The notes beneath the pieces are model-generated. The model was not told where the DNA came from and made no database searches. It saw only the letters and a program-made list of their open reading frames with translations. The position numbers and the translations under genes are program-made. A stretch of DNA of 30,923 bases. Source: a virus. Positions within the stretch are counted from its first letter, which is position 1, and the number at the start of each line of letters is the position of its first letter. Location of the stretch: positions 1 to 30,923 of the IMG/VR virus record IMGVR_UViG_3300035698_011778; one strand, 5' to 3'. Of the stretch, positions 1 through 24,637 are shown piece by piece.

Positions 1-1090
1 ATCTACATGCTATCCTAAAGATTACCCAGTCTTCATGTATTGACTCATCATACACACCACCTGAATCTTTTATCATCTTTACAACATGGTCAAATTCTTG
101 ATAATAAAGAGTATTTATATAATTATCAGCAGTAGCAATTGAATCACATAAATTATCTACATCAATTATATTGTCATTGTTCCCATCTGTTGCATACTCT
201 TTAAACGTGTTTTTTACTATCTGTAAGCAGCCTCTAGCATCCTTATATGATGAATAACAGTTCTTAGCTCTCCGACCGCTCTCGATAGCATGGAAGGCTG
301 ATGTTAGCTTTTCTCTATAGGTTGCACATCTTTTATATATTTTATTATCTCCTGATAAAGCATAACCATTCTCTATTCTCCATGCAGCTCCTTTTTCTGA
401 CTTAAATCTTTCTTTATACAATTTTATTCTAGCAAGTTCATCTTTATGTACTCCTTGTTTAAATGGGTAAAATATAGGAACATTCCCTTGTCTTATTTCA
501 ATATGTGTATGTGGTCCAGATGATTTTTCATTGAACTGTAAATTGTCTTTGCTCCCTCCAGATATACCTATGACATCACCCGTTTGGATTTTACGTCTAT
601 TTCCTAGCATTACTTGAGACATGTGTCCAATATGCCAGGACATATCCTTATCTCCTTCTTTCCATTTCAATACTACAGTTAACCCCATAGTATTTTCATT
701 TTCTTCTATTGATGCAATGTAAGTTCTTTTTTCATCATGTAACACGCCTTCATCATCAAGATACATGTAAGAAGGAGCGTATAAAGTAGAATTCTTTTGT
801 GTAGTATCACATACTATATCATATGCTATATATCCATTTCTTTTAAAGTGCTGTGTTTGATTTTGTGAGTACTCAAGATTAATATTTTTTAAGCATACAA
901 ATTCAAGTCTTTTTTCTGTAATCTCGTTATCCCAAACTGTTTTCAGTGGATGTTTTTCAGTTTTCATTACAGTATTAATACATAAGAATACTGTAACAAC
1001 AAAGACAATAACTGCAACTATTTTTAAATGTAATTTTAAATCTACTTTTATATTCTTCTTCTTTAATTTTGTAAATACAGTTTCTTTCAT
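1..1090 (-). CDS. Membrane-anchored M23-family peptidase, likely endolysin (3' part cut off)
   Basis: Open for about 363 codons and runs off the left edge. Residues 1-21 are lysine-rich and 22-41 form one hydrophobic segment, a signal anchor that would place the enzyme outside the membrane. The rest carries the M23 (LytM/lysostaphin) zinc signature: H81 and D91 in the spaced form H-x9-D (QHFKRNGYIAYD), GHMS at 155-158 in the catalytic-histidine position, and GPHTHIEIR at 192-200 with the H-x-H pair. About 160 further residues, with several cysteines and no domain I recognise, follow. M23 enzymes cut peptide crosslinks in peptidoglycan. It is the last gene of the leftward operon, next to several tiny membrane proteins, which fits lysis; a virion-associated wall hydrolase is the alternative. 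The start follows the usual AT-rich leader. Its first 40 codons are duplicated upstream (1482-1610). Confidence 0.8.
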   Translation of the reverse strand, partial: MKETVFTKLKKKNIKVDLKLHLKIVAVIVFVVTVFLCINTVMKTEKHPLKTVWDNEITEKRLEFVCLKNINLEYSQNQTQHFKRNGYIAYDIVCDTTQKNSTLYAPSYMYLDDEGVLHDEKRTYIASIEENENTMGLTVVLKWKEGDKDMSWHIGHMSQVMLGNRRKIQTGDVIGISGGSKDNLQFNEKSSGPHTHIEIRQGNVPIFYPFKQGVHKDELARIKLYKERFKSEKGAAWRIENGYALSGDNKIYKRCATYREKLTSAFHAIESGRRAKNCYSSYKDARGCLQIVKNTFKEYATDGNNDNIIDVDNLCDSIATADNYINTLYYQEFDHVVKMIKDSGGVYDESIHEDWVIFRIACR

Positions 1091-1971: not shown

Positions 1972-2352
1972 TTATTTAATTAATTTATCAATAACCTTTT
2001 TAGCTTCATCGAATCCATAACATACAAAAGCTTCATTCCCTGTACCATTTATTTTCTCTAACCATATTTTTTGATTTTCTCTTAATAGATCCTCTTTTGA
2101 CATATTGCCATTTTTAAGTATTTTCCTAAGCTTTTTCATTTCTATAAATATCAAAGTATTATTAATTACTAACAGATAATCTGGTATTCCAGCGTTTACC
2201 CCAACTGCCTTATTTTTTCTTTTCTGATTCCAGCTAGTAGTATATGTTTCATTAGGTATATGTGAATAAATCACATCATTTCCTTGTATCTTTAATATTT
2301 CAAGATAATCAACTAATGCTAAACATTCGTAATACTCTTCTTCGTTTCTCAT
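1972..2352 (-). CDS. VRR-NUC domain nuclease
   Basis: A stand-alone VRR-NUC (PD-(D/E)XK superfamily) protein of 126 aa, the usual size for phage members. Visible catalytic motifs are GIPDYLLV at 55-62 (D58), IEMKK at 70-74 (E71, K73) and Q94 in the following helix, with the typical C-terminal pattern of a small residue followed by YGFDEA at 112-117. In phages these proteins are linked to recombination or branched-DNA processing, such as Holliday-junction resolution. It follows the exonuclease and single-strand-binding candidates in the same operon, which agrees with that role. Confidence 0.85.
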   Translation of the reverse strand: MRNEEEYYECLALVDYLEILKIQGNDVIYSHIPNETYTTSWNQKRKNKAVGVNAGIPDYLLVINNTLIFIEMKKLRKILKNGNMSKEDLLRENQKIWLEKINGTGNEAFVCYGFDEAKKVIDKLIK

Positions 2353-2361
2353 ATAAGTGGT

Positions 2362-2577
2362 TTAAAGTATTATATGTTTTAATAATTTATATCTATATTT
2401 TTCTGCTTGTGTTTGTCCTTCTGCATTAACCCAACATTCTTCGTTGTACTGGAAGCTCCACTTTCTCCTAAACAATTCAAACATTTTTTCCCTTGCTTTT
2501 GAGGATTCCCCTTCAATTAAAACATAATATCCACAATGTTTGTGACCAACTCCAAAGGTGAAATAATTTTTTTCCAT
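2362..2577 (-). CDS. Hypothetical 71-aa phage protein
   Basis: A small soluble protein starting MEKNYFTFGVGHKHCGYYVLIEGES, followed by an amphipathic helix (SSKAREKMFELFRRKW). The pattern of an aromatic N-terminus, glycine-rich 'GxGHxHxGYYV' turn and helix containing REKMFELF is familiar from many uncharacterised phage early proteins. It lies three bases after the preceding gene. No enzymatic motif is evident; the histidine/cysteine cluster near residues 12-15 could bind metal, which is speculation. Confidence 0.65.
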   Translation of the reverse strand: MEKNYFTFGVGHKHCGYYVLIEGESSKAREKMFELFRRKWSFQYNEECWVNAEGQTQAEKYRYKLLKHIIL

Positions 2578-2580
2578 AGT

Positions 2581-2865
2581 TTAATTTTTAGGTGCTTCTA
2601 ATAAGTTAAGTGAAGAATTGCATTCTCTTATAGCGACAACTTCTATAATATCTTTTATTTTAGCAAAATGAGCGTGAATATTAGGAGGGAATTCTACTCG
2701 TGTTTGATTCCAGGGCTTAGTTCCAATTGTAAAGGTGCTTATTTGTTTATTATTTTCTGTATATAATGCTAAGTTAGCATATATTTCAGGGTCTCCTTTC
2801 TCACTAAAGTCTATTGAGATTTGTGTTATTTTAGCCTTGGTGATGTTTACATTTATTTTTTTCAT
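2581..2865 (-). CDS. Hypothetical 94-aa protein
   Basis: A probable beta-rich protein with no signal peptide, membrane span or known motif. It starts MKKINVNITKAKITQISIDF and contains alternating hydrophobic strands through about residue 60. It lies between the recombination-associated coiled-coil gene (upstream) and the 71-aa gene (three-base gap), so it is co-transcribed with recombination functions. The leader before ATG 2865 is a pure AT tract. Function unknown. Confidence 0.6.
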   Translation of the reverse strand: MKKINVNITKAKITQISIDFSEKGDPEIYANLALYTENNKQISTFTIGTKPWNQTRVEFPPNIHAHFAKIKDIIEVVAIRECNSSLNLLEAPKN

Positions 2866-2889
2866 AGTTTTAAAATTTAAGCGATAAAT

Positions 2890-3429
2890 TTAACGAACAG
2901 AAATTTGAGACTTTTGGAATATTTTTATACCTTCAATTTCACGTTCTCCATTTTTTATGGCTTCTCTAACAAGTGGTTCATTTATAGATAAGTAACATTT
3001 AGGAACAATGTTAGGATCTATAATTTCAAAGCTCCATACCTTTTTTATAGAAGTACACCCATTAGACGTTTTAATTGAGGTTTGAGGGGCTTCGACTATT
3101 GCTTGTGTGCCTTCTTCCTTTTTTTCTTCTAAGAGCTTCTCCGCCTCAATTCTTTTAGCCTCATGGTACTTTATAATTTCATTCTTGATTTTCACCTCTA
3201 CTTCTTTCAAGAAAGCTGAAGCATCTTTGAATTTACCATTAATAGTTTTTAATTGTTTATTTAGATCTGAAGTAAAGCTTTTTCTTAATTCTTCCATTTT
3301 TTTAAGCTTTTGTTTTACTTGAGATAATTGTTCAGATACAATGGTTAACTCATCATCTGATGATATTGCCATTGAAGTAAACGTATTAGCATACTTTTGA
3401 GCTTGATCTGTTATAATTTGTAAATCCAT
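2890..3429 (-). CDS. Recombination-associated coiled-coil protein
   Basis: Residues about 25-110 are a long charged coiled coil; residues about 125-179 form a small C-terminal domain with the pattern KKVWSFEIID, VPKCYLSINEPLVREAIKNG and EIEGIKIF. That arrangement is common in phage proteins encoded beside RecT- or ERF-type recombination genes and lambda-type exonucleases, although their molecular role is poorly described. Here it lies two bases after the PD-(D/E)XK exonuclease gene, the same linkage. A chaperone or accessory role for the exonuclease/annealing system is an inference from context. Confidence 0.6.
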   Translation of the reverse strand: MDLQIITDQAQKYANTFTSMAISSDDELTIVSEQLSQVKQKLKKMEELRKSFTSDLNKQLKTINGKFKDASAFLKEVEVKIKNEIIKYHEAKRIEAEKLLEEKKEEGTQAIVEAPQTSIKTSNGCTSIKKVWSFEIIDPNIVPKCYLSINEPLVREAIKNGEREIEGIKIFQKSQISVR

Positions 3430-3431
3430 GG

Positions 3432-4028
3432 TTAAATTTTTAATTGGTATATGTTAGTATCATCAAAGTATAGAGCAATAATATCGCTTTCCTCTATTCC
3501 AGTTCTTAATGCTAACATATTTTTATAATGAATAAGCTGACTCAATACTTTTGTTTTATTCTCCTTTGCCGCATTTGGCTTCAGATCACAGATATATACT
3601 TTATCATCTTTGTATCTTATTAGATCAATGAACCCGGAGCGTTCTTCGTTGTACACTGGTAATTCATAACATACGGTATACGGATCATATTTTAAGAAAT
3701 ATTCTTGTGCTATTTCGTGTTGTTTATTTCCATTGCCTCTATATTCAGATTTATTGGCTAACCATATAATTTCATCATCTTTTATTTCCTCAACTTCACC
3801 AATTAAATGTTTGCAATTACTACACCCTAGTTCTTGGTCTTTGTATCCATATTTGAATACTTGGTTTAAATAATTCCTTAGTTTATAAAAATTGATATGG
3901 CTTGTCTTTGTTATTGCATCTGGTATTGCATCAGCATGAGTAGTAAACTGATATTTAGCTTCATACTCTCCACGCATCTTTGTGAATGTACGAGAAATAA
4001 TATCTGATTTTTTAAATTCTTTTAGCAT
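3432..4028 (-). CDS. PD-(D/E)XK exonuclease (phage recombination nuclease)
   Basis: Carries the motifs of Cas4/AddB/lambda-exo type nucleases: HE at 104-105 in a helix, E122 before a strand, GFIDLIRYKDDKVYICDLKP at 132-151 giving D135 and the D148-x-K150 pair, and Q164 in the following helix (SQLIHYKNML). These supply the metal-binding and catalytic residues. At 198 aa it is close to a minimal single-domain exonuclease. A CxxC pair (C69, C72) plus C120 and C147 could hint at a metal site, but the usual four-cysteine iron-sulfur pattern is not evident. It sits next to the coiled-coil protein and the SSB-like gene, consistent with end resection for recombination. Confidence 0.75.
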   Translation of the reverse strand: MLKEFKKSDIISRTFTKMRGEYEAKYQFTTHADAIPDAITKTSHINFYKLRNYLNQVFKYGYKDQELGCSNCKHLIGEVEEIKDDEIIWLANKSEYRGNGNKQHEIAQEYFLKYDPYTVCYELPVYNEERSGFIDLIRYKDDKVYICDLKPNAAKENKTKVLSQLIHYKNMLALRTGIEESDIIALYFDDTNIYQLKI

Positions 4029-4046
4029 AGTATTATAATTTATATT

Positions 4047-4841
4047 TTAAAAAGGAACGTCAGATATATCAGTTTTAGATTCTTGTTTAGGAGTATTCTC
4101 AACTTCACTAAAAAGTTTATCTGCTTCCTCTTTTAATTTATCACTTTTATTATCGATTTGTTTTATTTCAGCTTCTTCAATAAGCTCTTCTTTTTTACCT
4201 GTATATAAGAACTCATTCAACTTTTTAATTGCATCAATTGTTTTTCCTATTGAAACCTCAACCCCTCTTTCAAATACCAGTTCATTATAAAATCTATCAC
4301 CTGTTTTTCTTGTTATAATTTCAGTTACTTTAAAAGTGATAGGCATATTAAATGAGCTAATCATTTTTTTAAGTTTATTTACTATTTCATAGCCACCTAC
4401 AATCATTTTCCATCTATAGATTTTATTCTTATAAACTACATATAGAACATCAGTAGAAGTTAACTCGTACTTTTTTCTTAATTCAAAAAAGTTTCCATTT
4501 TCAATAAGTTCCTTTGACTGTGTATCATACACCCCAATTTCAAAATCATCTGATTCAAGGCAATAAAAATCTCTTCTTTCAAGTTTGTCATTCCATTTAC
4601 CGTTAATTTGCACTCTTGTTTTTAATGGAACAAATTGAGCATTCTTAATATCAATTTCTAAAACTCCTTCATCATTATAAGCAAAGAGTTTCCCGAAGTT
4701 AGGATTAATTTGTCCATCTTCATTGATTTTTAAGTTGTCCAATTTTATTTCATTAAATGTTTGATACTCTTCTTGTTTTGGTTTTAGTTGATTCCACTCT
4801 TCTAATAGAGCTTGATCTTTTTTTGTAATTGCAGCAGTCAT
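4047..4841 (-). CDS. Probable single-stranded DNA-binding or annealing protein
   Basis: A 264-aa protein with a folded, strand-rich N-terminal ~190 residues, a charged linker (about 215-250), and a C-terminal end DISDVPF. A short acidic tail ending in a Pro-Phe is the hallmark by which bacterial and phage SSBs recruit partners. It precedes the exonuclease gene in the operon, where phages usually place an annealing protein (RecT/ERF) or SSB. I cannot place the N-terminal domain in a known family by eye, so the call rests on the tail and the context. Position and length would also suit a divergent annealase. Confidence 0.5.
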   Translation of the reverse strand: MTAAITKKDQALLEEWNQLKPKQEEYQTFNEIKLDNLKINEDGQINPNFGKLFAYNDEGVLEIDIKNAQFVPLKTRVQINGKWNDKLERRDFYCLESDDFEIGVYDTQSKELIENGNFFELRKKYELTSTDVLYVVYKNKIYRWKMIVGGYEIVNKLKKMISSFNMPITFKVTEIITRKTGDRFYNELVFERGVEVSIGKTIDAIKKLNEFLYTGKKEELIEEAEIKQIDNKSDKLKEEADKLFSEVENTPKQESKTDISDVPF

Positions 4842-4859
4842 AGTAAAATAAATTAATGA

Positions 4860-5054
4860 TTAAATATTATTATAGTAAAGTTTTATTCTTTTCATTTTCC
4901 TTTTTTCTATTACAGGAATTGAAATAACTGATCCGTTTTCTTTTAGTTTTTTTGAGGCTTTATCAAAGAATTTGTATATAGGAACATTAGTATATTTATG
5001 ACTAAGTCCTGCATAACAAGAATCTTTGAAGTCTTGCATTGTTAAGTTTTCCAT
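4860..5054 (-). CDS. Hypothetical 64-aa protein
   Basis: A small, basic, soluble protein (MENLTMQDFKDSCYAGLSHK at the N-terminus, KRKMKRIKLYYNNI at the C-terminus). No motif recognised. It is the second gene of the leftward operon, 9 bases after the zinc-ribbon gene. The leader is TTTAATTTTAATTT directly before ATG. The basic C-terminus might contact nucleic acid, but that is only a guess. Confidence 0.55.
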   Translation of the reverse strand: MENLTMQDFKDSCYAGLSHKYTNVPIYKFFDKASKKLKENGSVISIPVIEKRKMKRIKLYYNNI

Positions 5055-5063
5055 AAATTAAAA

Positions 5064-5264
5064 TTAAATAGTAACTTTTTCAAAGGCTTGCTTTCTGTGT
5101 TGCATATCTTCATACGCTTCTCTTGCTCCTCTAGTCGCTTCTTCACTGTATTCTCTTGTCCAGTGTCCGCAATCATGGCATAAATATTCATAGTATACAT
5201 TATGATCTTCATTACTGGTCACTCTTTGAACATGGAGACTTTTACATTCTGGACATCTAAACAT
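5064..5264 (-). CDS. Zinc-ribbon protein, first gene of leftward operon
   Basis: Residues 4-7 (CPEC) and 29-32 (CHDC) form two CxxC knuckles separated by about 22 residues, the spacing of a treble-clef or Ogr/Delta-like zinc ribbon. The remainder is helical and acidic (about residues 39-60). It is the first gene downstream of the leftward sigma70 promoter at 5355-5383, with a leader of roughly 80 bases. Small zinc-ribbon proteins in this position may be transcription factors, but DNA binding is not shown by the sequence. Confidence 0.65.
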   Translation of the reverse strand: MFRCPECKSLHVQRVTSNEDHNVYYEYLCHDCGHWTREYSEEATRGAREAYEDMQHRKQAFEKVTI

Positions 5265-5354: not shown

Positions 5355-5383
5355 ATTGTATCAAACTATAGATACATTGTCAA
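5355..5383 (-). promoter_or_regulatory. Leftward sigma70 promoter of the early operon
   Basis: On the minus strand: TTGACA (5383-5378), a 17-base spacer, then TACAAT (5360-5355). This is a consensus -35 and a five-of-six -10. It lies about 90 bases upstream of the first leftward gene. The spacer contains TGTATCTATA, an 8/10 match to the palindrome TGTATATACA found in two other promoters of this window. Confidence 0.8.
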
Positions 5384-5411
5384 TACTAATTACGGCAAAA
5401 AGTGTATTGAC
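5379..5411. promoter_or_regulatory. Inverted repeat over both divergent -35 boxes, operator candidate
   Basis: GTCAATAC (5379-5386) and GTATTGAC (5404-5411) are perfect 8-base inverted arms separated by 17 bases. Each arm overlaps the -35 box of one divergent promoter. A dimeric regulator bound here would shut both. The gene 60 bases away encodes a ribbon-helix-helix protein, the obvious candidate. Part of the symmetry follows simply from having two divergent TTGAC boxes. Confidence 0.45.
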
Positions 5412-5435
5412 TGTATATACATTATAATATATATT
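5407..5435 (+). promoter_or_regulatory. Rightward promoter with TGTATATACA palindrome in spacer
   Basis: TTGACT (5407-5412), 17 bases, TATATT (5430-5435), about 35 bases upstream of the ribbon-helix-helix gene. An alternative -10-like TATAAT at 5423-5428 is too close to the -35. The palindrome TGTATATACA occupies 5412-5421, directly after the -35, and would block polymerase if bound. Confidence 0.6.
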
Positions 5436-5470
5436 TAAAACAACTTATTAGAATTTAATTCATTTTTTAT

Positions 5471-5623
5471 ATGAAACAAATAAAACATTTAAGCTTGAGA
5501 TTATACGAGTCTGATATTGAGAAGATAGACAAAGTAAAAGAAATCTTAGCAAAAGAGACTGGTGAAAAACCCACTATTACTGGAGCTATTAGATATGCTC
5601 TTCACTATACTATAAAAGATTAA
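5471..5623 (+). CDS. 50-aa ribbon-helix-helix DNA-binding protein (Arc/CopG type)
   Basis: The start MKQIKHLSLRLYESDIEKID and the following helix, turn and helix (KVKEILAKETGEKP, then TITGAIRYALHYTIKD) match the ribbon-helix-helix fold: a basic beta strand with alternating residues (KHLSLRL), helix A, a Gly-containing turn, and helix B. Length is typical of a single-domain Arc-like repressor that binds palindromic DNA as a dimer of dimers. It sits alone in the divergent control region, just downstream of a promoter whose spacer holds a perfect 10-base palindrome, so autorepression and control of the leftward operon are likely. Start follows the leader TTTAATTCATTTTTTAT. Confidence 0.75.
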   Translation: MKQIKHLSLRLYESDIEKIDKVKEILAKETGEKPTITGAIRYALHYTIKD

Positions 5624-5696
5624 TAATTATTTAAGACGGTGGTGTGGATTAATATTGATATTTTTTTTAAGCCGTTGAAATAGGAACAAAAACATA

Positions 5697-5725
5697 TTGT
5701 CTGTGGTGAGCTATATGTATACAAA
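5697..5725 (+). promoter_or_regulatory. Possible promoter before the 104-aa gene
   Basis: TTGTCT (5697-5702), 17 bases, TACAAA (5720-5725), about 35 bases upstream of ATG 5761. The -10 overlaps the 8-base palindrome TGTATACA (5717-5724). Both boxes deviate from consensus, so confidence is modest. The rest of 5624-5760 holds a T-tract at about 5661-5668 but no convincing terminator stem. Confidence 0.35.
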
Positions 5726-5760
5726 ATCCTAAAGAACTTTATCAATTAAATTAATATAAT

Positions 5761-6075
5761 ATGAATGATCCAATTAAAGAAAAGTATAATGAAGTTATTG
5801 AATCAATAAGTGAAATGTTAGAGATTAATTATGATGCAATTAATGCTTTAGAAATAGTACAAAAGGAAAAAGGAATTGAACCTGATGAATATGATAATAA
5901 ATTATTATTACATGTAACTAAAGTGTTTGCTCATGTGTTATTCAATAAAGTTTATTTTAGAATGAAAAAGAAGACTACTTTTGAGCAACAGTGTGAGCTT
6001 GTAGAAGATTTAGGGGGTTCTATAAGAAAAATGATTAAAACCTGGACTGGGGTAGATTTGCATGATATTAATTAA
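5761..6075 (+). CDS. Hypothetical 104-aa helical protein
   Basis: Predominantly helical and acidic at the N-terminus (MNDPIKEKYNEVIESISEML), with a more basic centre (FRMKKKTTFEQQ). No membrane span and no recognised domain. First gene of the rightward transcript. Its last codons (the TGVDLHDIN end) and the leader of the next gene were copied in a segmental duplication (6044-6095 and 6393-6445). Function unknown. Confidence 0.6.
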   Translation: MNDPIKEKYNEVIESISEMLEINYDAINALEIVQKEKGIEPDEYDNKLLLHVTKVFAHVLFNKVYFRMKKKTTFEQQCELVEDLGGSIRKMIKTWTGVDLHDIN

Positions 6076-6088
6076 TAATATAAATAAT

Positions 6089-6394
6089 ATGAATGATCAA
6101 AAAATAGATGAAAATACAAGAAAAACAAATGCTAATGCGAAACTCCGAGACTTTATTGCTGTGCCATTTATATTTATAGGCCTTTTATTCTTAACGCTTG
6201 CAATGATAACTGGCAGTACATACACAATAAATAAAGTTCTAAAAATAGATGAAAATACAAGAAAAACAAATGCTAATATGAAACTCCGAGACTTTATTGC
6301 TATGCCATTTATATTTATAGGCCTTTTATTCTTAACGCTTGCAATGATAACTGGCAGTACATACACAATAAATAAAGTTCTAAAAAGTTTATGA
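6089..6394 (+). CDS. Small membrane protein with two tandem copies of a 47-aa unit
   Basis: I start it at ATG 6089 (MNDQKIDENTRK), because the ATG at 6062 lies inside the preceding gene and the usual AT leader precedes 6089. The protein is two copies, about 141 bases apart, of a unit made of a polar stretch (KIDENTRKTNANxKLRDF) and a long hydrophobic span (IAxPFIFIGLLFLTLAM) followed by ITGSTYTINKVL. So it should cross the membrane twice with the same local sequence. A third copy is a separate 41-aa ORF at 6437. UGA is the stop. Function unknown; superinfection exclusion or lysis timing are possible roles for such proteins, without direct evidence. Confidence 0.6.
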   Translation: MNDQKIDENTRKTNANAKLRDFIAVPFIFIGLLFLTLAMITGSTYTINKVLKIDENTRKTNANMKLRDFIAMPFIFIGLLFLTLAMITGSTYTINKVLKSL

Positions 6395-6540
6395 CTGGGG
6401 TAGATTTGAATGATATTAATTAATAATATAAATAATATGAAACTCCGAGACTTTATTGCTATGCCATTTCTATTTATAGGCTTTTTATTCTTAACGCTTG
6501 CAATGATAACTGGCAGTACATACACAATAAATAAAGTTCT
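6139..6540. repeat. Three copies of a ~102-base membrane-protein segment
   Basis: Nearly identical segments at about 6139-6240, 6280-6381 and 6439-6540, each encoding KLRDFIAxPF through INKVL. Copies 1 and 2 are a tandem 141-base repeat inside one gene. Copy 3 came with duplicated upstream sequence (6393-6438, equal to 6044-6090 with one obvious change), so leader and start codon were copied too. Confidence 0.9.
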
Positions 6541-6562
6541 AAATCCCCACCAAGATGTATAA
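6437..6562 (+). CDS. 41-aa single-copy version of the repeated membrane unit
   Basis: Starts MKLRDFIAMPFLFIGFLFLT and continues to INKVL, then a unique tail NPHQDV. The leader TTAATTAATAATATAAATAAT is identical to that of the two-copy gene. Its last codons (NPHQDV) are encoded by the 5' arm of the terminator stem at 6546-6616, so the gene ends inside the terminator. Confidence 0.55.
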   Translation: MKLRDFIAMPFLFIGFLFLTLAMITGSTYTINKVLNPHQDV

Positions 6563-6616
6563 TTATGTTTTCACATCGCCAACTAAGCACAACAATTAAT
6601 CTTGGTGGGTTTTTTT
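6546..6616 (+). terminator. Terminator with 11-bp stem, long loop and T-run
   Basis: CCCACCAAGAT (6546-6556) pairs perfectly with ATCTTGGTGGG (6599-6609), followed by seven T (6610-6616). The loop is 42 bases, unusually long for an intrinsic terminator, and could hold further structure or a regulatory site. Confidence 0.75.
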
Positions 6617-6640
6617 CGTGTTTGGTTGGCATTGTGAGTT

Positions 6641-6646
6641 TATAAT
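6641..6646 (+). promoter_or_regulatory. Probable -10 box for the replication module
   Basis: A perfect TATAAT at 6641-6646, 15 bases before ATG 6662, directly after the terminator. No good -35 lies at the proper distance (best nearby TTGGTT is too close). The transcript would have a leader of only about 9 bases. Confidence 0.4.
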
Positions 6647-6661
6647 TTAACCCACCGAGAA

Positions 6662-7291
6662 ATGAATGATGGTTGGATAAAGATTCATCGTAAGATGTTA
6701 GACTGGGAATGGTATACTGATTCTTGTACAAAGGATCTATTTCTTCATTTGCTATTAATAGCTAATCATAAAGAAAAAATGTGGAAAGGTAATATTATAA
6801 AAAGAGGTGAAGTTTTGACAGGTAGAATTAAGTTAGCTGAGGAGCTTGGTTTTGGCATACAAAAAATCCGCACATCACTCAATCGTCTAAAATCAACCAG
6901 CGAAATAACCATCAAAACAACCAATAAATATAGCTTAATAAAGCTAAAAAACTACGAAGAGTATCAAGAGTCTAACCAGCTAGCTAACCAACAACTAACC
7001 ATCAATCAACCAGCAACTAACCACAAACAAGAAAGAAAGAAAGAAAAGAATATAAATATACCGTTTAATTTTTTCTGGAACAGCTACAACAAAAAGGTTG
7101 ATAAATCTAAATGTGAAAAGAAATGGAATTCACTCACTGAAGAAGATAGAAAAAAAGCTATGCATAATATACCACTCTACATTAAGAATACCCCAGATGT
7201 TAAGTATAGAAAAAATCCTATTACTTGGTTAAACGGTAAATGTTGGGAAGATGAGGTTTTAGAGAATATTGAACAACATAATTTTTATTAG
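6662..7291 (+). CDS. DnaD/O-like phage replication initiation protein
   Basis: Residues 1-105 match the N-terminal winged-helix domain of phage replisome organisers: GWIKIHRKMLDWEWY, FLHLLLIANHKEK, RGEVLTGRIKLAEELG, then the recognition helix region (IQKIRTSLNRLKSTSEITIK) and the wing (NKYSLIKLKNYEEYQ). A Gln/Asn-rich linker (about 104-125) leads to a basic helical C-terminal domain ending in a pattern common to these proteins (NPITWLNGKCWEDE). Such proteins bind the origin and load the helicase; the helicase gene follows 13 bases later. A phage origin is often within this gene. I looked for iterons in its AT-rich linker (6960-7030): there are repeated AACCA words on the plus strand but no clear array. 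Confidence 0.75.
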   Translation: MNDGWIKIHRKMLDWEWYTDSCTKDLFLHLLLIANHKEKMWKGNIIKRGEVLTGRIKLAEELGFGIQKIRTSLNRLKSTSEITIKTTNKYSLIKLKNYEEYQESNQLANQQLTINQPATNHKQERKKEKNINIPFNFFWNSYNKKVDKSKCEKKWNSLTEEDRKKAMHNIPLYIKNTPDVKYRKNPITWLNGKCWEDEVLENIEQHNFY

Positions 7292-7304
7292 TTAAAACAA
7301 AAAC

Positions 7305-8222
7305 ATGAAAGCTCCAAATGTTAAGATTAGTGATTACATAACTTCCGATGAGTATGAGAAGCTATTAGGGGCTGAATCAATAATCGAAGATTTAGAATTA
7401 GATCACATTAATAAAGTCTTTGTTGAACTTGAGAAGTCAGATTTAAGAATATTGAAAAGTGCTTCGTTTCTTGATGTTGCTAAAGTTCTCATTCGTGGAG
7501 CCGTAACAAGAATAGGTGCTTATTCTAATATTGGTAAATCTAAACTTGCTTACTGGATTAGTATACAGTTATTAAAAAATAACTATTCAGGAATTATATT
7601 TTCAACTGAAGTAAATAGACACACAGTACTAAGCAATTTAATATCCTGTGTTGATGAAGTAGATTTTTGGAAGGTAGCAAAAAAAGAACATATACCATCT
7701 GAAAAATGTAGATATTTGTTTAGCTCTTTGCAAATTTATGACGGTAGGCGTGGAGCTATGTTTCTTAAAACTATTAGGGAATTTGTGATAGCCAATGGAG
7801 GGAATATTGATTTTATAATTGTTGATTTTTGCCAAAATATAAAAGATTATCAGTTTTCTAAAAATGAATATGAGCAAATGAGTAACTATGCTTTAGAGAT
7901 TCAACAACTAGCGCAAAACTTTGATATTTGTGTTATAGATTTAAGCCAGCTTGCCAATTCTGCGGTAAAGGAAGACTATAAGAAGTCAGGATTTATAAGT
8001 TTCAAGGGTAGTGGGGCTTTGTATGCTAGTGCTGATATTGGAATTCAACTTGTTAGAGATAAAGAAAATAATCCGAATCAAATGTTTATTGAAGTTAGAA
8101 AGCATAAGTATTATAAAACTGGTGATATACTTGTTGAAGTTGATTTTTCTACAACAAACTTTCAACATATCGATTCTCTAACTGAAAAAGCACTTAATAA
8201 ATTCCAAAATGATAACAATTAA
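7305..8222 (+). CDS. DnaB-type replicative helicase, RecA-fold domain only
   Basis: A 305-aa ATPase with a DnaB-like core: Walker A AYSNIGKS at 72-79, a strand-turn (IIFSTEVNR, 97-105) like the motif after Walker A in DnaB, Walker B IIVDFCQNI at 171-179 (D174), and the H3-type motif DLSQLAN at 212-218. Residues 1-60 are too short to be the DnaB N-terminal scaffold. Phage replicative helicases without the N-terminal domain are known. It follows the initiator gene and overlaps the next gene by 14 bases, so initiator, helicase and primase-like protein are one translational block. Confidence 0.75.
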   Translation: MKAPNVKISDYITSDEYEKLLGAESIIEDLELDHINKVFVELEKSDLRILKSASFLDVAKVLIRGAVTRIGAYSNIGKSKLAYWISIQLLKNNYSGIIFSTEVNRHTVLSNLISCVDEVDFWKVAKKEHIPSEKCRYLFSSLQIYDGRRGAMFLKTIREFVIANGGNIDFIIVDFCQNIKDYQFSKNEYEQMSNYALEIQQLAQNFDICVIDLSQLANSAVKEDYKKSGFISFKGSGALYASADIGIQLVRDKENNPNQMFIEVRKHKYYKTGDILVEVDFSTTNFQHIDSLTEKALNKFQNDNN

Positions 8223-8742
8223 TAATCATTATCGGGTTGATTACGAAAAATATTTATACGAATGTAAAGGAAATTATGATTTGTTTTATGATCTTGTGTG
8301 TGATGATAAACTCGAGATTGATAGGGCTTATGAAGCAATGAAGAAAAAAACAACTCAAACTTTAGGATTCTTTCAAGCAGTGAATATTTTTAAGGATTAC
8401 TTGCCAACTCTGGTAAAAATAAAGCTTGAGTATGTGAAAGATAAGCATCTTGTATGGAGAAAAATTAAGAATTTACTTGAGAGTGAAGGTAAACTTGAAG
8501 TAGAAAAATCAAAAGAGATCCCGATTGAATACGTTTGTGAGCAATTAGGAATTAAGCTTTATCACGGAAGAGCCGCTACGCCGTTTGTCCAAGAAGCTAA
8601 TAATATAACGGCTTTTATGGTAAAAAATAATAGATTTAGGTGCTTTAGAACTGGTAAATATGGGACAAATATTGATTTAGTAATGGAAGTTACAGGAAAT
8701 AATTTTATACAATCTGTTAAATATCTTAATGCCTTGATATAG
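8209..8742 (+). CDS. Primase CHC2-like domain protein lacking most zinc ligands
   Basis: Residues about 103-177 follow the layout of the DnaG N-terminal zinc-binding (CHC2) domain: EIPIEYVCEQLGIKL (103-117), a strand containing ATPFV where CPFH is expected (123-127), TAFMVKNNRFRCFRTGKYG (134-152) where the family has a CFxCGxGG turn, then NIDLVMEVTGNNFIQSVKYL (154-173). Only C145 of the usual zinc ligands remains. Residues 1-100 are helical and unrecognised. There is no TOPRIM catalytic domain, so this is not a complete primase. It may have become a DNA-binding or helicase-partner module; translational coupling to the helicase fits. Confidence 0.6.
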   Translation: MITINNHYRVDYEKYLYECKGNYDLFYDLVCDDKLEIDRAYEAMKKKTTQTLGFFQAVNIFKDYLPTLVKIKLEYVKDKHLVWRKIKNLLESEGKLEVEKSKEIPIEYVCEQLGIKLYHGRAATPFVQEANNITAFMVKNNRFRCFRTGKYGTNIDLVMEVTGNNFIQSVKYLNALI

Positions 8743-8768
8743 CTTTATTTATTTATTAAAATTAAATC

Positions 8769-9053
8769 ATGAAAAACCGTATGAATACTTACTTGAGGGC
8801 GTTTAAGTATAAAGAAAATGATATTATTTCATGTGAGTTTTGCGGTAGACTTTCTATTGATATTAGATACATAAACCCAAGAGGAATAGGAAAAGACAAG
8901 AATAAAAATTGTGTAGAAAACCTTGTTGCCTTGTGTAAAGATTGTTATTTAAAAATCAAGTCTAAACGTATTTCAAAAGATGATTTAATAAAACAACATG
9001 AATTTCTAATGATGAGCGAAGGAGTTAAGTTTTTATCTCATGATAATTTATGA
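8769..9053 (+). CDS. HNH-like zinc protein with altered catalytic positions
   Basis: A 94-aa protein laid out like an HNH endonuclease: CEFC at 22-25, DIRYINPRGIG at 31-41, NCVENLVALCKDCY at 47-60 with the second CxxC at 56-59. In active HNH proteins the second motif normally reads D-[IH]-H-H-I and the last ends C-H; here those histidines are Arg33/Tyr34 and Tyr60, whereas the Asn (N51) is kept. It may be an inactive structural or DNA-binding derivative, or a divergent nuclease. Stop is UGA. It follows the replication genes. Confidence 0.6.
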   Translation: MKNRMNTYLRAFKYKENDIISCEFCGRLSIDIRYINPRGIGKDKNKNCVENLVALCKDCYLKIKSKRISKDDLIKQHEFLMMSEGVKFLSHDNL

Positions 9054-9189
9054 TAGTCCAGGAGATGATTAAAGGTATGTAGGTTAAGAGAAAGCATACT
9101 AAATGATAAAGTATACCATAAGCACATTAAAAATCAATACAGGTCAACGTAACAACTCACAGCAACTTTATAAATTAATAACAATAATT

Positions 9190-9435
9190 ATGGTTAAATT
9201 AACAGGTAAAGAAGCCGGTTTCATAGAAGAAACTTTGAATGACTTACAACAAATAACTTTGAATTATAACTCCAAAGAAAAAATTGAAGAATGTTTAAGT
9301 ATTATTTCAGATTCTATTAGGAAAGAATTTGAAGAATTATTACAAGATGAAGACTCCAATAGAAAATATGACAAAAAAGAGCAAGAAACTAGAGATTTTA
9401 ATAGCTTCTTACTTACTGATTTATACAAGTGTTAA
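9190..9435 (+). CDS. Hypothetical 81-aa protein
   Basis: I start it at ATG 9190 (MVKLTGKEAGFIEETL) because the leader TTTATAAATTAATAACAATAATT resembles those elsewhere, while the longer frame from 9103 has a peptide unlike its neighbours and no such leader. Acidic and helical; no motif recognised. Its stop codon (9433-9435) overlaps the stop of the convergent gene on the other strand, marking the junction with the inverted island. Confidence 0.55.
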   Translation: MVKLTGKEAGFIEETLNDLQQITLNYNSKEKIEECLSIISDSIRKEFEELLQDEDSNRKYDKKEQETRDFNSFLLTDLYKC

Positions 9436-9593
9436 CTAGCATACTTTACTAATCTAGCTTTGTAATCATTCTCTTGCCTCCGGTTTATTTCTTTTTCAAT
9501 CCAATTGTAATGAATGCTAATTGTTCTTCTTAACCCATAAAGAGTCTCAAGCTTTCTTTTGTTTATTAAGTGCCTTGTGTCGCAGTATTTCAT
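9432..9593 (-). CDS. Hypothetical 53-aa basic protein of the inverted island
   Basis: Starts MKYCDTRHLINKRKLETLYG and ends KARLVKYAS. It is basic and helical, without a recognised motif. The leader before ATG 9593 (AACTTAATACTAATACC) resembles those of the other three island genes. Stop overlaps that of the convergent plus-strand gene. Confidence 0.5.
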   Translation of the reverse strand: MKYCDTRHLINKRKLETLYGLRRTISIHYNWIEKEINRRQENDYKARLVKYAS

Positions 9594-9617
9594 GGTATTA
9601 GTATTAAGTTTGTAAAC

Positions 9618-9767
9618 TTACAATGCTTTTACTTTATTAATTAGTTCCTCATAGTATTCCAATGCCGTTATTTTTTTTGTGTTCTTTGATTCTTTTATAA
9701 GTATATTAACTAAAATTGATCTGTCCAATATATTAATTTGTCCTGGTGATGTTGTTGTGTTTGTCAT
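9618..9767 (-). CDS. Hypothetical 49-aa protein of the inverted island
   Basis: Starts MTNTTTSPGQINILDRSILV and continues as an amphipathic helical segment (NILIKESKNTKKITALEYYE). Its leader, CTTAATTCACATTATC directly before ATG, is nearly identical to that of the LPD29 gene upstream, so it is very likely translated. Function unknown. Confidence 0.5.
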   Translation of the reverse strand: MTNTTTSPGQINILDRSILVNILIKESKNTKKITALEYYEELINKVKAL

Positions 9768-9795
9768 GATAATGTGAATTAAGTTTGTAAAAAGT

Positions 9796-10224
9796 TTAAT
9801 CTATAATTGGCTTATTCTTTAAAAACTTATATAATAATTGATCGCTCCATATATCTAATTTTCTCATTACTTCTGTATCCGTAAATTCTGCTAATCCGTG
9901 ATATTTACATAAATATATTTTTGCTCGTTCTTTCACTTCTTGTGATATTGTCCTGCTAGTAAATATGTAACTAACTTGCGGCAGTCCTTCAATTGAATTT
10001 GAATATTCGTAGCAATCAGTCATTCCGTCAAAGTGTCCTTGTTTATACTTTGATACGATTTTTTTTATTTTTTGTTCAGGTACTCCATTTTCGTATCCTA
10101 TATTAATAGAATTGCCCCCTGCATAGTTTTCGGATATTACTTTGAATTTAATGTTAGGAAAATGTTCTTTGAGGTCTTTTCTAATTAGTTTTGCTGCTTG
10201 TGCTGCAATTGTTGGTGTTCTCAT
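9796..10224 (-). CDS. LPD29-family protein (Large polyvalent-protein-associated domain 29)
   Basis: I start it at ATG 10224 (MRTPTIAAQAAKLIRKDLKE), where the island leader TTAATTCACATTATC ends. Residues about 8-80 match my memory of LPD29: an N-terminal AA..IRKDLKEHFPNIKF motif, YAGGNSINIGYENG, a helix, then the YKQGHFDGMTDCYEY motif. This domain is common on mobile elements and in phage polyvalent proteins that are thought to act on host functions or defence. The C-terminal 60 residues are helical and unrecognised. It is the largest gene of the inverted island, followed closely by two tiny genes. Confidence 0.7.
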   Translation of the reverse strand: MRTPTIAAQAAKLIRKDLKEHFPNIKFKVISENYAGGNSINIGYENGVPEQKIKKIVSKYKQGHFDGMTDCYEYSNSIEGLPQVSYIFTSRTISQEVKERAKIYLCKYHGLAEFTDTEVMRKLDIWSDQLLYKFLKNKPIID

Positions 10225-10244
10225 GATAATGTGAATTAATGTAT

Positions 10245-10277
10245 AAAAAAGAGAATTAAGCCCCACGAATGAGGCTT
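10245..10277 (-). terminator. Weak terminator or attenuator inside the island
   Basis: Minus-strand stem AAGCCTC/GGGGCTT (10277-10271 with 10264-10258, one mismatch, 6-base loop), then AATTCTC and a run of six T down to 10246. It lies directly after the 101-aa gene and before the LPD29 gene, so it may reduce downstream transcription. The stem is short. Confidence 0.4.
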
Positions 10278-10287
10278 TATCTTTCTT

Positions 10288-10593
10288 TTATATGATTCTC
10301 ATGATCTCTCCTTCTTCAGCTCTTTTATTCAAATCGTCTTGTTTTGCGGTGTCGTTGTTTACTATGTGATTTAGTAAACTTTGTTCTGGAATTTCTAGGT
10401 GTTCGAAAAAGGCGCTATAAAAATCATTATATATTTTCGTGCATAAACTGTGCGCAACACATTTTCCTAAAATCCTGTGTGCGTCTTTATCTGTTTTATT
10501 CCAATTCTCATTGATCAGAACCGATTGAACGCCCCCTATTAGTTTTAAAACTCTTCGGGTGTCTGCCGTTGTTGTGATTTTTTGATTTGTCAT
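10288..10593 (-). CDS. Hypothetical 101-aa protein, first gene of the inverted island
   Basis: I start it at ATG 10593 (MTNQKITTTADTRRVLKLIG): the frame is open further upstream to 10794, but that extension would run through the promoter at 10625-10653, and the island leader (TTAATTCATATTACC) precedes 10593. The protein is helical with an acidic C-terminus (RAEEGEIMRII). No family recognised. First gene after a near-consensus promoter, hence probably well expressed. Confidence 0.6.
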   Translation of the reverse strand: MTNQKITTTADTRRVLKLIGGVQSVLINENWNKTDKDAHRILGKCVAHSLCTKIYNDFYSAFFEHLEIPEQSLLNHIVNNDTAKQDDLNKRAEEGEIMRII

Positions 10594-10624
10594 GGTAATA
10601 TGAATTAAATGATTGATTGCTCCT

Positions 10625-10653
10625 ATTATATAGGAATGTATATACAATGTCAA
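10625..10653 (-). promoter_or_regulatory. Consensus sigma70 promoter of the inverted island
   Basis: Minus strand: TTGACA (10653-10648), exactly 17 bases, TATAAT (10630-10625). Both boxes are perfect. The spacer holds the palindrome TGTATATACA (10637-10646), also present at 5412-5421 in the rightward control promoter. It fires about 30 bases upstream of ATG 10593. Confidence 0.85.
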
Positions 10654-17245: not shown

Positions 17246-18259
17246 ATGGCAATTGAAACAAGAGCTACTTTAGGAGACTCTTTTATGAAAGGTTTGTCAG
17301 CTAAATTGTACGACATAAAAAATCAATCCGATTTAGCTTATACGACTGCTTTCTCATCGGCTCTAGGGGTAGAAAACAATATGTTTACTCAGCTTTTTAA
17401 AACTGAGAGTTCAAATCAATCTCGAGAACAAATTGATGGAAAAACGGGAGTAGGTTATTCTACAGATACAGCTGAAGGAGCAGATTTTGCTTCAGACAGT
17501 CGAGCTGCTGGATATACTACTCAGTTTAACTTCCGAAAACTTACAAACGGAATTACAATAACACTTGAAAATCGTTTGGATCGTATTGGTGATAAGAAAC
17601 TAAATGAAATGAGAGATCTTCTTATTGGAGCTAAAATGACTCAAAACAGAGATGCTTTCACCTTATTCAATGATGCATTTACAGCACAAGCTTCTCTTCC
17701 TAGTATTATTACATATTATGGAGACGGTGTTCCAGCTTGTTCTACTCTTCATCCTATCAAAGAAACTACAACTTCAAATACAACTCAATCAAATGCTTCA
17801 GCTACTGGTATTGCTCTTTCTGAAACTCATCTAGAAACAGCAAGACAAGCTCTACGAAGACAAACAGATGACAAAGATCTTCCAATGGCAATCGGATCTT
17901 CTAATCTTATTCTTCTAGTTCCTGATTCATTAGAAAAAACAGCAGTTATTCTTACAAATGGTAAACTACGACCTTCAACAGCTAACAATGATATTAATGT
18001 TTACGATGGTATCGTAACTGTTATTTCTTCAAAATGGCTTAATTCTCAAAACGGAGGTTCTGATACAGCTTGGTTCTTAATTGATTCAATGAATTCTCCA
18101 GTTATCTTTTTTGAAAGAAGTCCTATTACTACCTCTGTATATACTACAGATTCAAACAAGAACGTAACTATGGATTTTTATACTCGTTACCAAGTAGGTA
18201 ATACAGATTTCCGTGGGATATGGGGATCAAAAGGTGACGGAGCAGATTATTCTAGTTAA
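17246..18259 (+). CDS. Major coat protein
   Basis: 337 aa, single copy directly after scaffold and decoration genes, the canonical position. The N-terminal helical arm (MAIETRATLGDSFMKGLSAK), a repetitive Gly/Asp loop (DGKTGVGYSTDTAEGADF, the expected E-loop region), the long helix with ALRRQTDDKDLPM, the strand NLILLVPDSLEKT, and the C-terminal domain with TRYQVGNTDFRGIWG are typical of HK97-fold coat proteins of the Mu gpT-like class. It forms the icosahedral shell. Gene codon use is richer in C and G at third positions than its neighbours, as expected for a highly expressed gene. Confidence 0.75.
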   Translation: MAIETRATLGDSFMKGLSAKLYDIKNQSDLAYTTAFSSALGVENNMFTQLFKTESSNQSREQIDGKTGVGYSTDTAEGADFASDSRAAGYTTQFNFRKLTNGITITLENRLDRIGDKKLNEMRDLLIGAKMTQNRDAFTLFNDAFTAQASLPSIITYYGDGVPACSTLHPIKETTTSNTTQSNASATGIALSETHLETARQALRRQTDDKDLPMAIGSSNLILLVPDSLEKTAVILTNGKLRPSTANNDINVYDGIVTVISSKWLNSQNGGSDTAWFLIDSMNSPVIFFERSPITTSVYTTDSNKNVTMDFYTRYQVGNTDFRGIWGSKGDGADYSS

Positions 18260-22409: not shown

Positions 22410-24637
22410 GTGCATTTTCTAATCCTGAAGATAACTACAGATTTACTATTCTTGAAGAAGACATGGTTGAGAATCTGTCAGCTGCTGGTATTACAACTGC
22501 TATAGATGATGATTCTATGGGTACAGCTTTAGCCACTAATGTTTCAAGTGCTGAATCAATTAAAGCTTATGTTGATGCTCATGCCTATAGTAGCGAAACT
22601 TCTATAGAGTTAGGAGAAAATATGACAGCAGAAGATTTAGTTAGGATAATTAATGATGGAGGGGCTAAAGCTAAGAAGATTGTGGAATCTAAAACTGCTT
22701 CTATTGGTACTGCTGTAGTATTTGAAAGTGCTTCTACAAGATATATTTCATCTTGTTATGATAGCACGAATGGAAAAGTTGTTATAGCTTACCAAGATGA
22801 TGCTAATTTTGATTATGGGACAGCAGTTGTCGGGACAGTTAGTGGTACAGCTATAAGTTTTGGAACAGTTGTAGTATTTGAAAGTGCTAATATTACTTAT
22901 ATCGATTGTTGTTTTGACAGTACAAATGGTAAAGTTGTTATAGCATATCAAGATGGTGGCAATGCTGCTAAAGGAACAGCGATAGTAGGAACTGTTAGTG
23001 GTACAGATATAAGTTTTGGTACTGCTGTAGTATTTGAAAATGCTACTACAAAAAATGTTTCATCTTGTTATGATAGCACGAATGGAAAAGTTGTTATAGC
23101 TTACCAAGATGATGATAATTCTGATTATGGGACAGCAGTTGTCGGGACAGTTAGTGGTACAGATATAAGTTTTGGTACTGCTGTAGTATTTGAGGCTGGA
23201 CATACTGATTTGATTGCACCTTCATTTGATAGTACAAATGATAAAGTTGTTATTGCGTATAGAGACCAAACCAATTCTCAATATGGAACAGCAGTTGTCG
23301 GGACAGTTAGTGGTACAGATATAAGTTTTGGTACTGCTGTAGTATTTGAAAGTGCTTCTACAAAATATGTTTCATCTTGTTATGATAGCACGAATGGAAA
23401 AGTTGTTATAGCTTACCAAGATGATGATAATTCTGATTATGGGACAGCAATAGTCGGAACAGTTTCAGGAACAGCTATAAGTTTTGGTACTGCTGTAGTA
23501 TTTGAGGCTGGAAAGACTGATTATATTGCATCTTCATTTGATAGTACATATGGTAAAGTTGTTATAGCATATCAAGATGGTGGCAATGATGGTAAAGGAA
23601 CAGCGATAGTAGGAACTGTTAGTGGTACAGATATAAGTTTTGGAAATAAAGGAGTATTTGAAAATGCTACTACAAATCATATTTCATCTTGTTATGATAG
23701 CACGAATGGAAAAGTTGTTATAGCATATCAAGATGGTGGTGAGTCTAACTATGGTACAGCGATAGTTTATCAACCAGCAGGTACAACCTATTATTATAAT
23801 GATTGTGTTGGGGTATTACAAGAAACAGGAACAAGCGGACAAAGTAAAAATGTAATGTTACTTGGAGGTATTTCAACAGCACATAGTGGAGAAACTCCTG
23901 GAACTAATGCTTACATACAAACAAACGGGAAAATAGGTACAACTGCAACTGATTATCCTTTAGGAGAGTTTGTTTCAGCTACAGAACTTGTATTAGCTGA
24001 AAAAACTAGAAGAATACTAGATGAAGATACTCTTACTTCTGATAGTAATACTGCATTAGCAACACAACAGAGTATTAAAGCTTATGTTGATGCTACAACT
24101 CTTCAAAAATCTTTTGATGTAGGACAAACTATTACTATCGCTGATACAGATAATCAAACACTACTTATTACACAAAGTGATACAACAAATAATCCCGATG
24201 CTGTACAGATAGTTAATGCAGGAACAGGTGATTCTTTATTTCTTGACCAGAATGGAATCGGTATAGCTCTTAATATAGATACAGAAGCAACAACAACAGA
24301 TGCAATAAATGTTGATGCTGATGCTATTACTACAGGAGTTTTAGCTAGACTAGCTTCTGATAGTGCCGATACTACAGCAAGAAATTTAGTAGAGATAATA
24401 AACGACAATACAGCAGCAGTTGGGACTACTCCTTTAATGATACAGCAAGACGCTGTAACAAGTACTAACTTTAAAAAATGTGCTACTTTTGCAGGATTTT
24501 CTATATGGATTTCAGATGGTACAACAGCAGAAGGAGCGTTAACAGGGGTTGAAGGAGATATATGTTTAAATGGTGGTACTGGTGCTGGTCAGACAGCTTT
24601 CTGTGATGCAGCAGGAACAAATTGGACAGATATGTAA
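22406..24637 (+). CDS. 743-aa fibre protein with seven-repeat propeller-like domain
   Basis: N-terminus (about 1-100) has a linker motif ATNVSSAESIKAYVDAH that recurs in the middle as ALATQQSIKAYVDAT. Residues about 100-455 are seven repeats of ~50 aa with the core 'SFGTAVVFExxxTxYISSCYDST' and 'NGKVVIAYQDxxNxxYGTAxVGTVSG'. Seven repeats of this length suggest a seven-bladed beta-propeller. The last ~110 residues (from about 630) match those of the fibre gene at 28298: 'IINDNTAAVxxTPLMIQQDA', 'VTSTNFKKxxTxxGxxIWxS', and a Cys-containing GDICLNG tip. Likely a tail or head fibre with a receptor-binding end. Confidence 0.7.
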   Translation: MSAFSNPEDNYRFTILEEDMVENLSAAGITTAIDDDSMGTALATNVSSAESIKAYVDAHAYSSETSIELGENMTAEDLVRIINDGGAKAKKIVESKTASIGTAVVFESASTRYISSCYDSTNGKVVIAYQDDANFDYGTAVVGTVSGTAISFGTVVVFESANITYIDCCFDSTNGKVVIAYQDGGNAAKGTAIVGTVSGTDISFGTAVVFENATTKNVSSCYDSTNGKVVIAYQDDDNSDYGTAVVGTVSGTDISFGTAVVFEAGHTDLIAPSFDSTNDKVVIAYRDQTNSQYGTAVVGTVSGTDISFGTAVVFESASTKYVSSCYDSTNGKVVIAYQDDDNSDYGTAIVGTVSGTAISFGTAVVFEAGKTDYIASSFDSTYGKVVIAYQDGGNDGKGTAIVGTVSGTDISFGNKGVFENATTNHISSCYDSTNGKVVIAYQDGGESNYGTAIVYQPAGTTYYYNDCVGVLQETGTSGQSKNVMLLGGISTAHSGETPGTNAYIQTNGKIGTTATDYPLGEFVSATELVLAEKTRRILDEDTLTSDSNTALATQQSIKAYVDATTLQKSFDVGQTITIADTDNQTLLITQSDTTNNPDAVQIVNAGTGDSLFLDQNGIGIALNIDTEATTTDAINVDADAITTGVLARLASDSADTTARNLVEIINDNTAAVGTTPLMIQQDAVTSTNFKKCATFAGFSIWISDGTTAEGALTGVEGDICLNGGTGAGQTAFCDAAGTNWTDM
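22704..23775 (+). repeat. Seven imperfect ~150-base coding repeats
   Basis: Repeat units start near 22704, 22858, 23016, 23175, 23325, 23484 and 23637. Some adjacent segments are almost identical in DNA (for example GATAGCACGAATGGAAAAGT recurs at least four times), so recent expansion or gene conversion is likely. Confidence 0.85.

Follow-up and report, generated by a model that had tools for sequence, protein, structure and literature searches.

A palindrome in early promoters of an uncultured phage, very probably an operator, and a small ribbon-helix-helix-like protein as its likely reader

The stretch of DNA considered here (the window) is the complete IMG/VR record IMGVR_UViG_3300035698_011778, a virus contig of 30,923 bases with 32% GC and open ends, which therefore is not guaranteed to cover the whole phage genome. 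Two of its early promoters, P_R and P_island, carry an exact copy of the 10-base palindrome TGTATATACA between the -35 and -10 elements, and this palindrome is very probably an operator. We further consider it fairly probable that the operator is read by a 50-aa protein, probably of the ribbon-helix-helix (RHH) type, encoded behind P_R, which would repress its own promoter as well as P_island and, probably, a third promoter, P_L. The elements concerned are the following.

5407-5435, plus strand: P_R, TTGACT (5407-5412), 17-base spacer, TATATT (5430-5435), 10/12
5412-5421, no strand assigned: operator of P_R, exact TGTATATACA, covering the last -35 base and spacer
5403-5407: additional half-site TGTAT at P_R
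10625-10653, minus strand: P_island, TTGACA (10653-10648), 17-base spacer, TATAAT (10630-10625), 12/12
10637-10646, no strand assigned: operator of P_island, exact TGTATATACA, in the spacer
5355-5383, minus strand: P_L, TTGACA (5383-5378), 17-base spacer, TACAAT (5360-5355), 11/12
5357-5376, no strand assigned: candidate operator of P_L, inverted repeat TGTATC-N8-GATACA, containing TGTATCTATA
5471-5623, plus strand: probable RHH repressor of 50 aa, first gene behind P_R

A search of the entire record yields two exact copies of TGTATATACA, at 5412-5421 and 10637-10646, where Markov models of order 2-3 predict 0.13-0.18, and both occupy spacers of sigma70-type promoters. The earlier note on this DNA had placed the palindrome at these positions, correctly, and had named scattering outside promoters as the outcome that would speak against a regulatory role; no exact copy lies outside a promoter. 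Among 600 simulated records, none contained TGTATATACA in the spacer of a promoter of at least 10/12, and when 135 promoter-like sites are ranked by the similarity of their spacers to the palindrome, P_island, P_R and P_L come out on top (10, 10 and 8 of 10). P_island is also the sole 12/12 promoter found in the record, and 11/12 is reached by P_L and one site at 17252. Words with one mismatch number 11, compared with 2.8 expected, but they are found mainly in coding DNA, two of them being copies of one duplicated segment, and are not used as evidence. The proposal that the palindrome occupies the same place in all three promoters is accurate for P_island and P_L, where its first base falls at position 8 when the first -35 base is taken as 1, and inexact for P_R, where it overlaps the last -35 base and starts at position 6.

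The site at P_L is of a different kind. The word at 5376-5367, TGTATCTATA, matches the palindrome in 8 of 10 positions, and a split inverted repeat TGTATC-N8-GATACA, with exact TGTAT and ATACA arms set about one helical turn further apart and one arm over the -10 element, fits better than a decayed copy of the palindrome. A tentative alternative, which we hold to be possible although not favored, is that P_R and P_island are coregulated without P_L and that TGTATCTATA is a chance likeness in AT-rich DNA: the site has no second TGTA/TACA arm in register, and inverted repeats with arms of 6 bp are common, the record containing 146 of them. The third rank among the promoter-like sites argues against this, as do the exact arms of the split repeat and the clustering of half-sites, with six TGTAT/ATACA in the 206-bp divergent intergenic region compared with ~0.8 expected. 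Accordingly, we retain P_L as a probable member of the regulon, with weaker standing than P_R and P_island.

An indication of what kind of protein reads the palindrome comes from bacterial genomes. A scan for the -35/palindrome/-10 arrangement TTGACANTGTATATACANNNNNNTATA in a collection of 84,980 species recovered 32 loci, of which ~24 are type II toxin-antitoxin (TA) operons as judged by reading the downstream genes, in Patescibacteria, Cyanobacteria, spirochaetes, clostridia, proteobacteria and others. The downstream proteins match the Pfam families RelB (6), CopG_antitoxin (7), BrnA (5), TacA1 (4) and MazE (3), which overlap, and the accompanying toxins belong to the GNAT, ParE, BrnT, YoeB, YafQ, PemK and PIN families. 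In the reverse direction, 90 RHH-antitoxin loci (TacA, BrnA, RelB) were picked by family alone, and the exact palindrome was present in 8 of them compared with 0.29 expected, two of the eight lying in genomes already found by the first scan; a control palindrome was present in 0/90, and other 10-bp palindromes tested in these loci gave 0-1. The association of the promoter/palindrome unit with RHH-antitoxin operons across many phyla strengthens the operator interpretation of the earlier note. It also agrees with binding biochemistry: the RHH protein RelB of Escherichia coli binds TTGTAATTACAA, nearly the same word, with the core [A/T]TGT[A/C]A, the central AT of the left half-site mattering less (PMC2812701), and Phd of Enterococcus faecalis, which has an AbrB-like fold, binds and has been crystallised with exactly TGTATATACA (PMC13034048). 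Three of the scanned loci (L063, L064, L065) likewise encode AbrB-fold antitoxins of the VapB/MazE type behind a promoter and operator identical to those of the RHH antitoxins, which suggests that the AbrB and RHH folds converge on one DNA word.

These observations raise the alternative that the phage operator is bound by a chromosomal antitoxin of the host (of RelB/BrnA/TacA or AbrB/MazE type) whose usual role is to repress its own TA operon through this word and which controls the phage promoters incidentally or adaptively. The presence of the same unit ahead of TA operons in many phyla, the Phd complex and the weakness of the RHH call for the phage protein are in its favor. Nevertheless, we find it rather unlikely given that one of the sites is immediately followed by a small RHH-like gene and that small RHH genes recur beside the palindrome promoter in other phages. 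A broader reading, in which TGTATATACA is a recurrent operator word for unrelated folds (RHH and AbrB-like), both in chromosomal TA operons of many phyla and in early promoters of phages, enabling cross-reading between phage repressor and host antitoxin and coupling early phage transcription to the TA state of the host, seems doubtful to us.

It could also be suspected that TATA-rich promoter spacers simply yield such a palindrome by chance, the more so in an AT-rich record. Two control palindromes placed after TTGACA occur in 9 and 17 contigs of IMG/VR, and after one of them, GTTATATAAC, a good -10 element follows in 6 of 17 cases, compared with 15 of 38 for TGTATATACA (Fisher p 0.42). Enrichment of -10 elements was therefore rejected as evidence specific for TGTATATACA: palindromes are common in phage promoter spacers, and it is the association with RHH and TA genes that singles this word out. 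Chance is opposed by the expectation of 0.13-0.18 copies, by the promoter placement seen in none of the simulations, by the difference between TGTATATACA and the control in the RHH-antitoxin loci, and by ~1.6 Mb of phage DNA described below, in which the three exact copies all lie outside promoters. By these counts, an origin by chance or composition is largely refuted and highly improbable. The control word itself, often as ACACGTTATATAACGTGT, is found in spacers of strong promoters in several phage contigs (L339, L341, L343, L347, L350) and is apparently another phage operator. LexA-type operators follow the pattern CTGT-N8-ACAG; a LexA-type reading of the palindrome was set aside, its spacing being different.

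Among viruses, a scan of IMG/VR for TTGACANTGTATATACA identified 33 contigs. One of these (L026; whole contig L078) comes from a phage distantly related to that in the window, with a DnaD-like protein 41-43% and a terminase large subunit (TerL) 38-40% identical. It has the identical sequence TTGACATTGTATATACA in two promoters, which lie, like those of the window, with the replication genes on one side and the terminase genes on the other. These are its only exact palindromes, and the genes that follow on the same strand include one for an RHH_1 protein (Pfam E 1.7e-5, above the cut-off). Such a pair of identical promoter-operators followed by an RHH gene adds further weight to the operator interpretation. 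In addition, a small RHH gene adjoins the palindrome promoter in L034 (RHH_1 E 4e-4), and such genes were recognised by eye beside it in L032, L017 and L033. Several contigs carry the promoter in multiple copies, namely three in L007, two in L033 and two or three in L025. The spacing found at P_R (TTGACTGTATATACA-N8-TATA) has one match with a good promoter in IMG/VR. Two contigs deserve mention in their own right. In the GC-rich (58%) phage contig L007/L080, the palindrome promoter occurs at 1749, 5223 and 6135, and at one site a second copy of the word, with one mismatch, lies 12 bp further over the -10 element, resembling the abutting half-sites of relO; no RHH gene was recognised in this contig. 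In L024 (4618-5191), a viral contig carries a RelB-RelE/YoeB-like TA operon with a TGTATATACA promoter.

The 50-aa protein, when read by eye, shows the pattern expected of an RHH domain: a ribbon KHLSLRL, helix A, a turn and helix B with PTITGAIRYALHY. An AlphaFold2 model computed from the single sequence, without an alignment, predicts residues 1-12 to be non-helical, followed by helices at 13-30 and 36-45 (predicted local distance difference test score 82), and the ribbon LSLRL is similar to INLRI and VNFRI of antitoxins found in the genome scan. When a hidden Markov model (HMM) was built from the RHH proteins encoded beside the palindrome, this protein ranked first among 289 open reading frames (ORFs), with E 0.15. 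The RHH assignment, as proposed in the earlier note, is likely, not proven: the protein looks like an RHH by its pattern and predicted helices, but the curated families contribute no match. The protein is an RHH core devoid of a C-terminal toxin-binding tail, and the next gene (5761-6075) has no match to a toxin; it is therefore not an antitoxin, and would likely act more like a stand-alone repressor of the Arc or CopG type.

We find it improbable that the reader of the operator is a different protein of the phage, such as the zinc-ribbon protein encoded first in the leftward operon or an island gene product, with the RHH-like protein having a different role. These operons do encode several small proteins of no assigned function, but none has a recognised repressor domain, and the RHH-like ORF holds the first HMM rank.

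Several results nonetheless weigh against the 50-aa protein as the reader of the operator at all three promoters. The HMM match, although it ranks first, is weak; no curated RHH family in Pfam, NCBIfam or PHROGs matches the protein; comparison with an RHH profile by hhalign yields a probability of just 3.7%; and a fold search with the model produced no significant match, a search that is uninformative because an isolated RHH monomer consists of just two helices. The protein is an orphan, with no relatives in any collection searched, and direct searches recovered close relatives of neither this protein nor the helicase of the window. Operator placement is offset by 2 bp between P_R and P_island, and the site at P_L is degenerate, so that its membership depends on the 8/10 match. 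Since AbrB-fold antitoxins use TGTATATACA too, the word alone is not diagnostic of an RHH binder. Finally, the operator is absent from other phages whose DnaD-like or terminase genes are related to those of the window: in a footprinting set of ~1.6 Mb, made up of 79 phages that encode related DnaD-like proteins and 80 that encode related terminases, there are 3 exact palindromes, none in a promoter, so conservation rests on the one relative and the set serves as background only. The analysis thus shows where the sites lie, how rare they are and that promoters contain them, that one relative conserves the promoter-operator, and that the word is associated with RHH-antitoxin operons; that the 50-aa protein is the binder, that it represses upon binding and that P_L is to be included are inferred.

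Small RHH repressors with regulons of several promoters are a known kind of phage circuit, and the system in the window would be a new member of this kind. Arc of phage P22 is a short phage RHH protein that represses phage promoters, and CopG of plasmids (RHH_1, PF01402) is a tiny RHH autorepressor of 45-50 aa acting at its own promoter. The phage protein resembles Arc as a short repressor of RHH type that would act on phage promoters, but the operators differ, the system of the window is placed in the divergent P_L/P_R region, and Arc was not recovered by the sequence searches used on the window protein. With CopG it shares the tiny size and the proposed autorepression, although it lacks the PF01402 match that the relative L026 has. 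Arc has been compared structurally with RelB (PMC3507626). The RelB operator of E. coli, relO, is a 12-bp palindrome TTGTA-N2-TACAA over the promoter of an RHH autorepressor, and differs in that two such palindromes abut and the toxin acts as co-repressor (PMC2812701), whereas the phage has single spacer palindromes at more than one promoter and no toxin gene. E. faecalis Phd-Doc has the identical word near its promoter (PMC13034048), but Phd has an AbrB/MazE-like beta fold, is the antitoxin of Doc and is not an RHH protein. The TacA-TacT, BrnT-BrnA, RelB/DinJ-RelE and VapB/MazE operons share the promoter-operator TTGACA-N-TGTATATACA-N6-TATA; what separates the window protein from their antitoxins is, again, the missing tail and toxin partner.

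We propose that TGTATATACA is a repressor operator between -35 and -10 and that its cognate repressor would most likely be the 50-aa RHH-like protein behind P_R. The two-stranded beta ribbon of the dimer would enter the major groove at TGTA-N2-TACA and block RNA polymerase. At P_R, this would result in negative autoregulation of the repressor along with the replication genes, and at P_island in silencing of the inverted island, while the split site at P_L probably would serve the leftward recombination genes. The genes assigned to each promoter by gene order and strand are the following.

5761-8742, plus strand: rightward replication operon, small ORFs followed by loader, helicase and primase protein
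6662-7291, plus strand: DnaD-like helicase loader (phrog_2514, 5e-26)
7305-8222, plus strand: DnaB-like helicase (Pfam 3e-18)
8209-8742, plus strand: primase zinc-ribbon protein
1972-5264, minus strand: leftward operon of P_L, beginning with a zinc-ribbon protein
1972-2352, minus strand: VRR-NUC nuclease, last gene of the leftward operon
9432-10590, minus strand: inverted island, four small genes (for a 100-aa protein, an LPD29 protein and two more small proteins)
9796-10266, minus strand: LPD29-domain protein of the island

Given that P_R heads replication genes, the link between the recombination operon and the island suggested by the earlier note would be wider in scope, joining the recombination, replication and island operons.

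Elsewhere in the window, a 141-bp unit encoding a segment of a small membrane protein (KLRDFIAMPFIFIGLLFLTLAMITGSTYTINKVL) is tandemly duplicated (6100-6386 and 6410-6562), the copies being 97% identical, and part of the unit recurs once more in the ORF that follows. The start of a lysis-like gene (M23 peptidase/transglycosylase, 2-1090, minus strand) is near-exactly repeated ~520 bp upstream (~1035-1105 and ~1555-1625, the word TGTAAATACA included), which resembles a local duplication. A structural ORF of 743 aa contains ~6.8 copies of a 156-bp repeat at 22704-23766 (FESASTRYISSCYDSTNGKVVIAYQDD repeats) and probably is a repeat-built tail or receptor-binding protein.

For this uncultured phage, the analysis outlines a circuit in which one 50-aa protein would tie together recombination, replication and an accessory inverted island. 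More generally, RHH-type regulators of different TA families and of phages have operators marked by one and the same 10-bp word, so that orphan small repressors and their regulons can be found by DNA search, and the sharing of this word poses the question of possible cross-regulation between phage repressors and host antitoxins.

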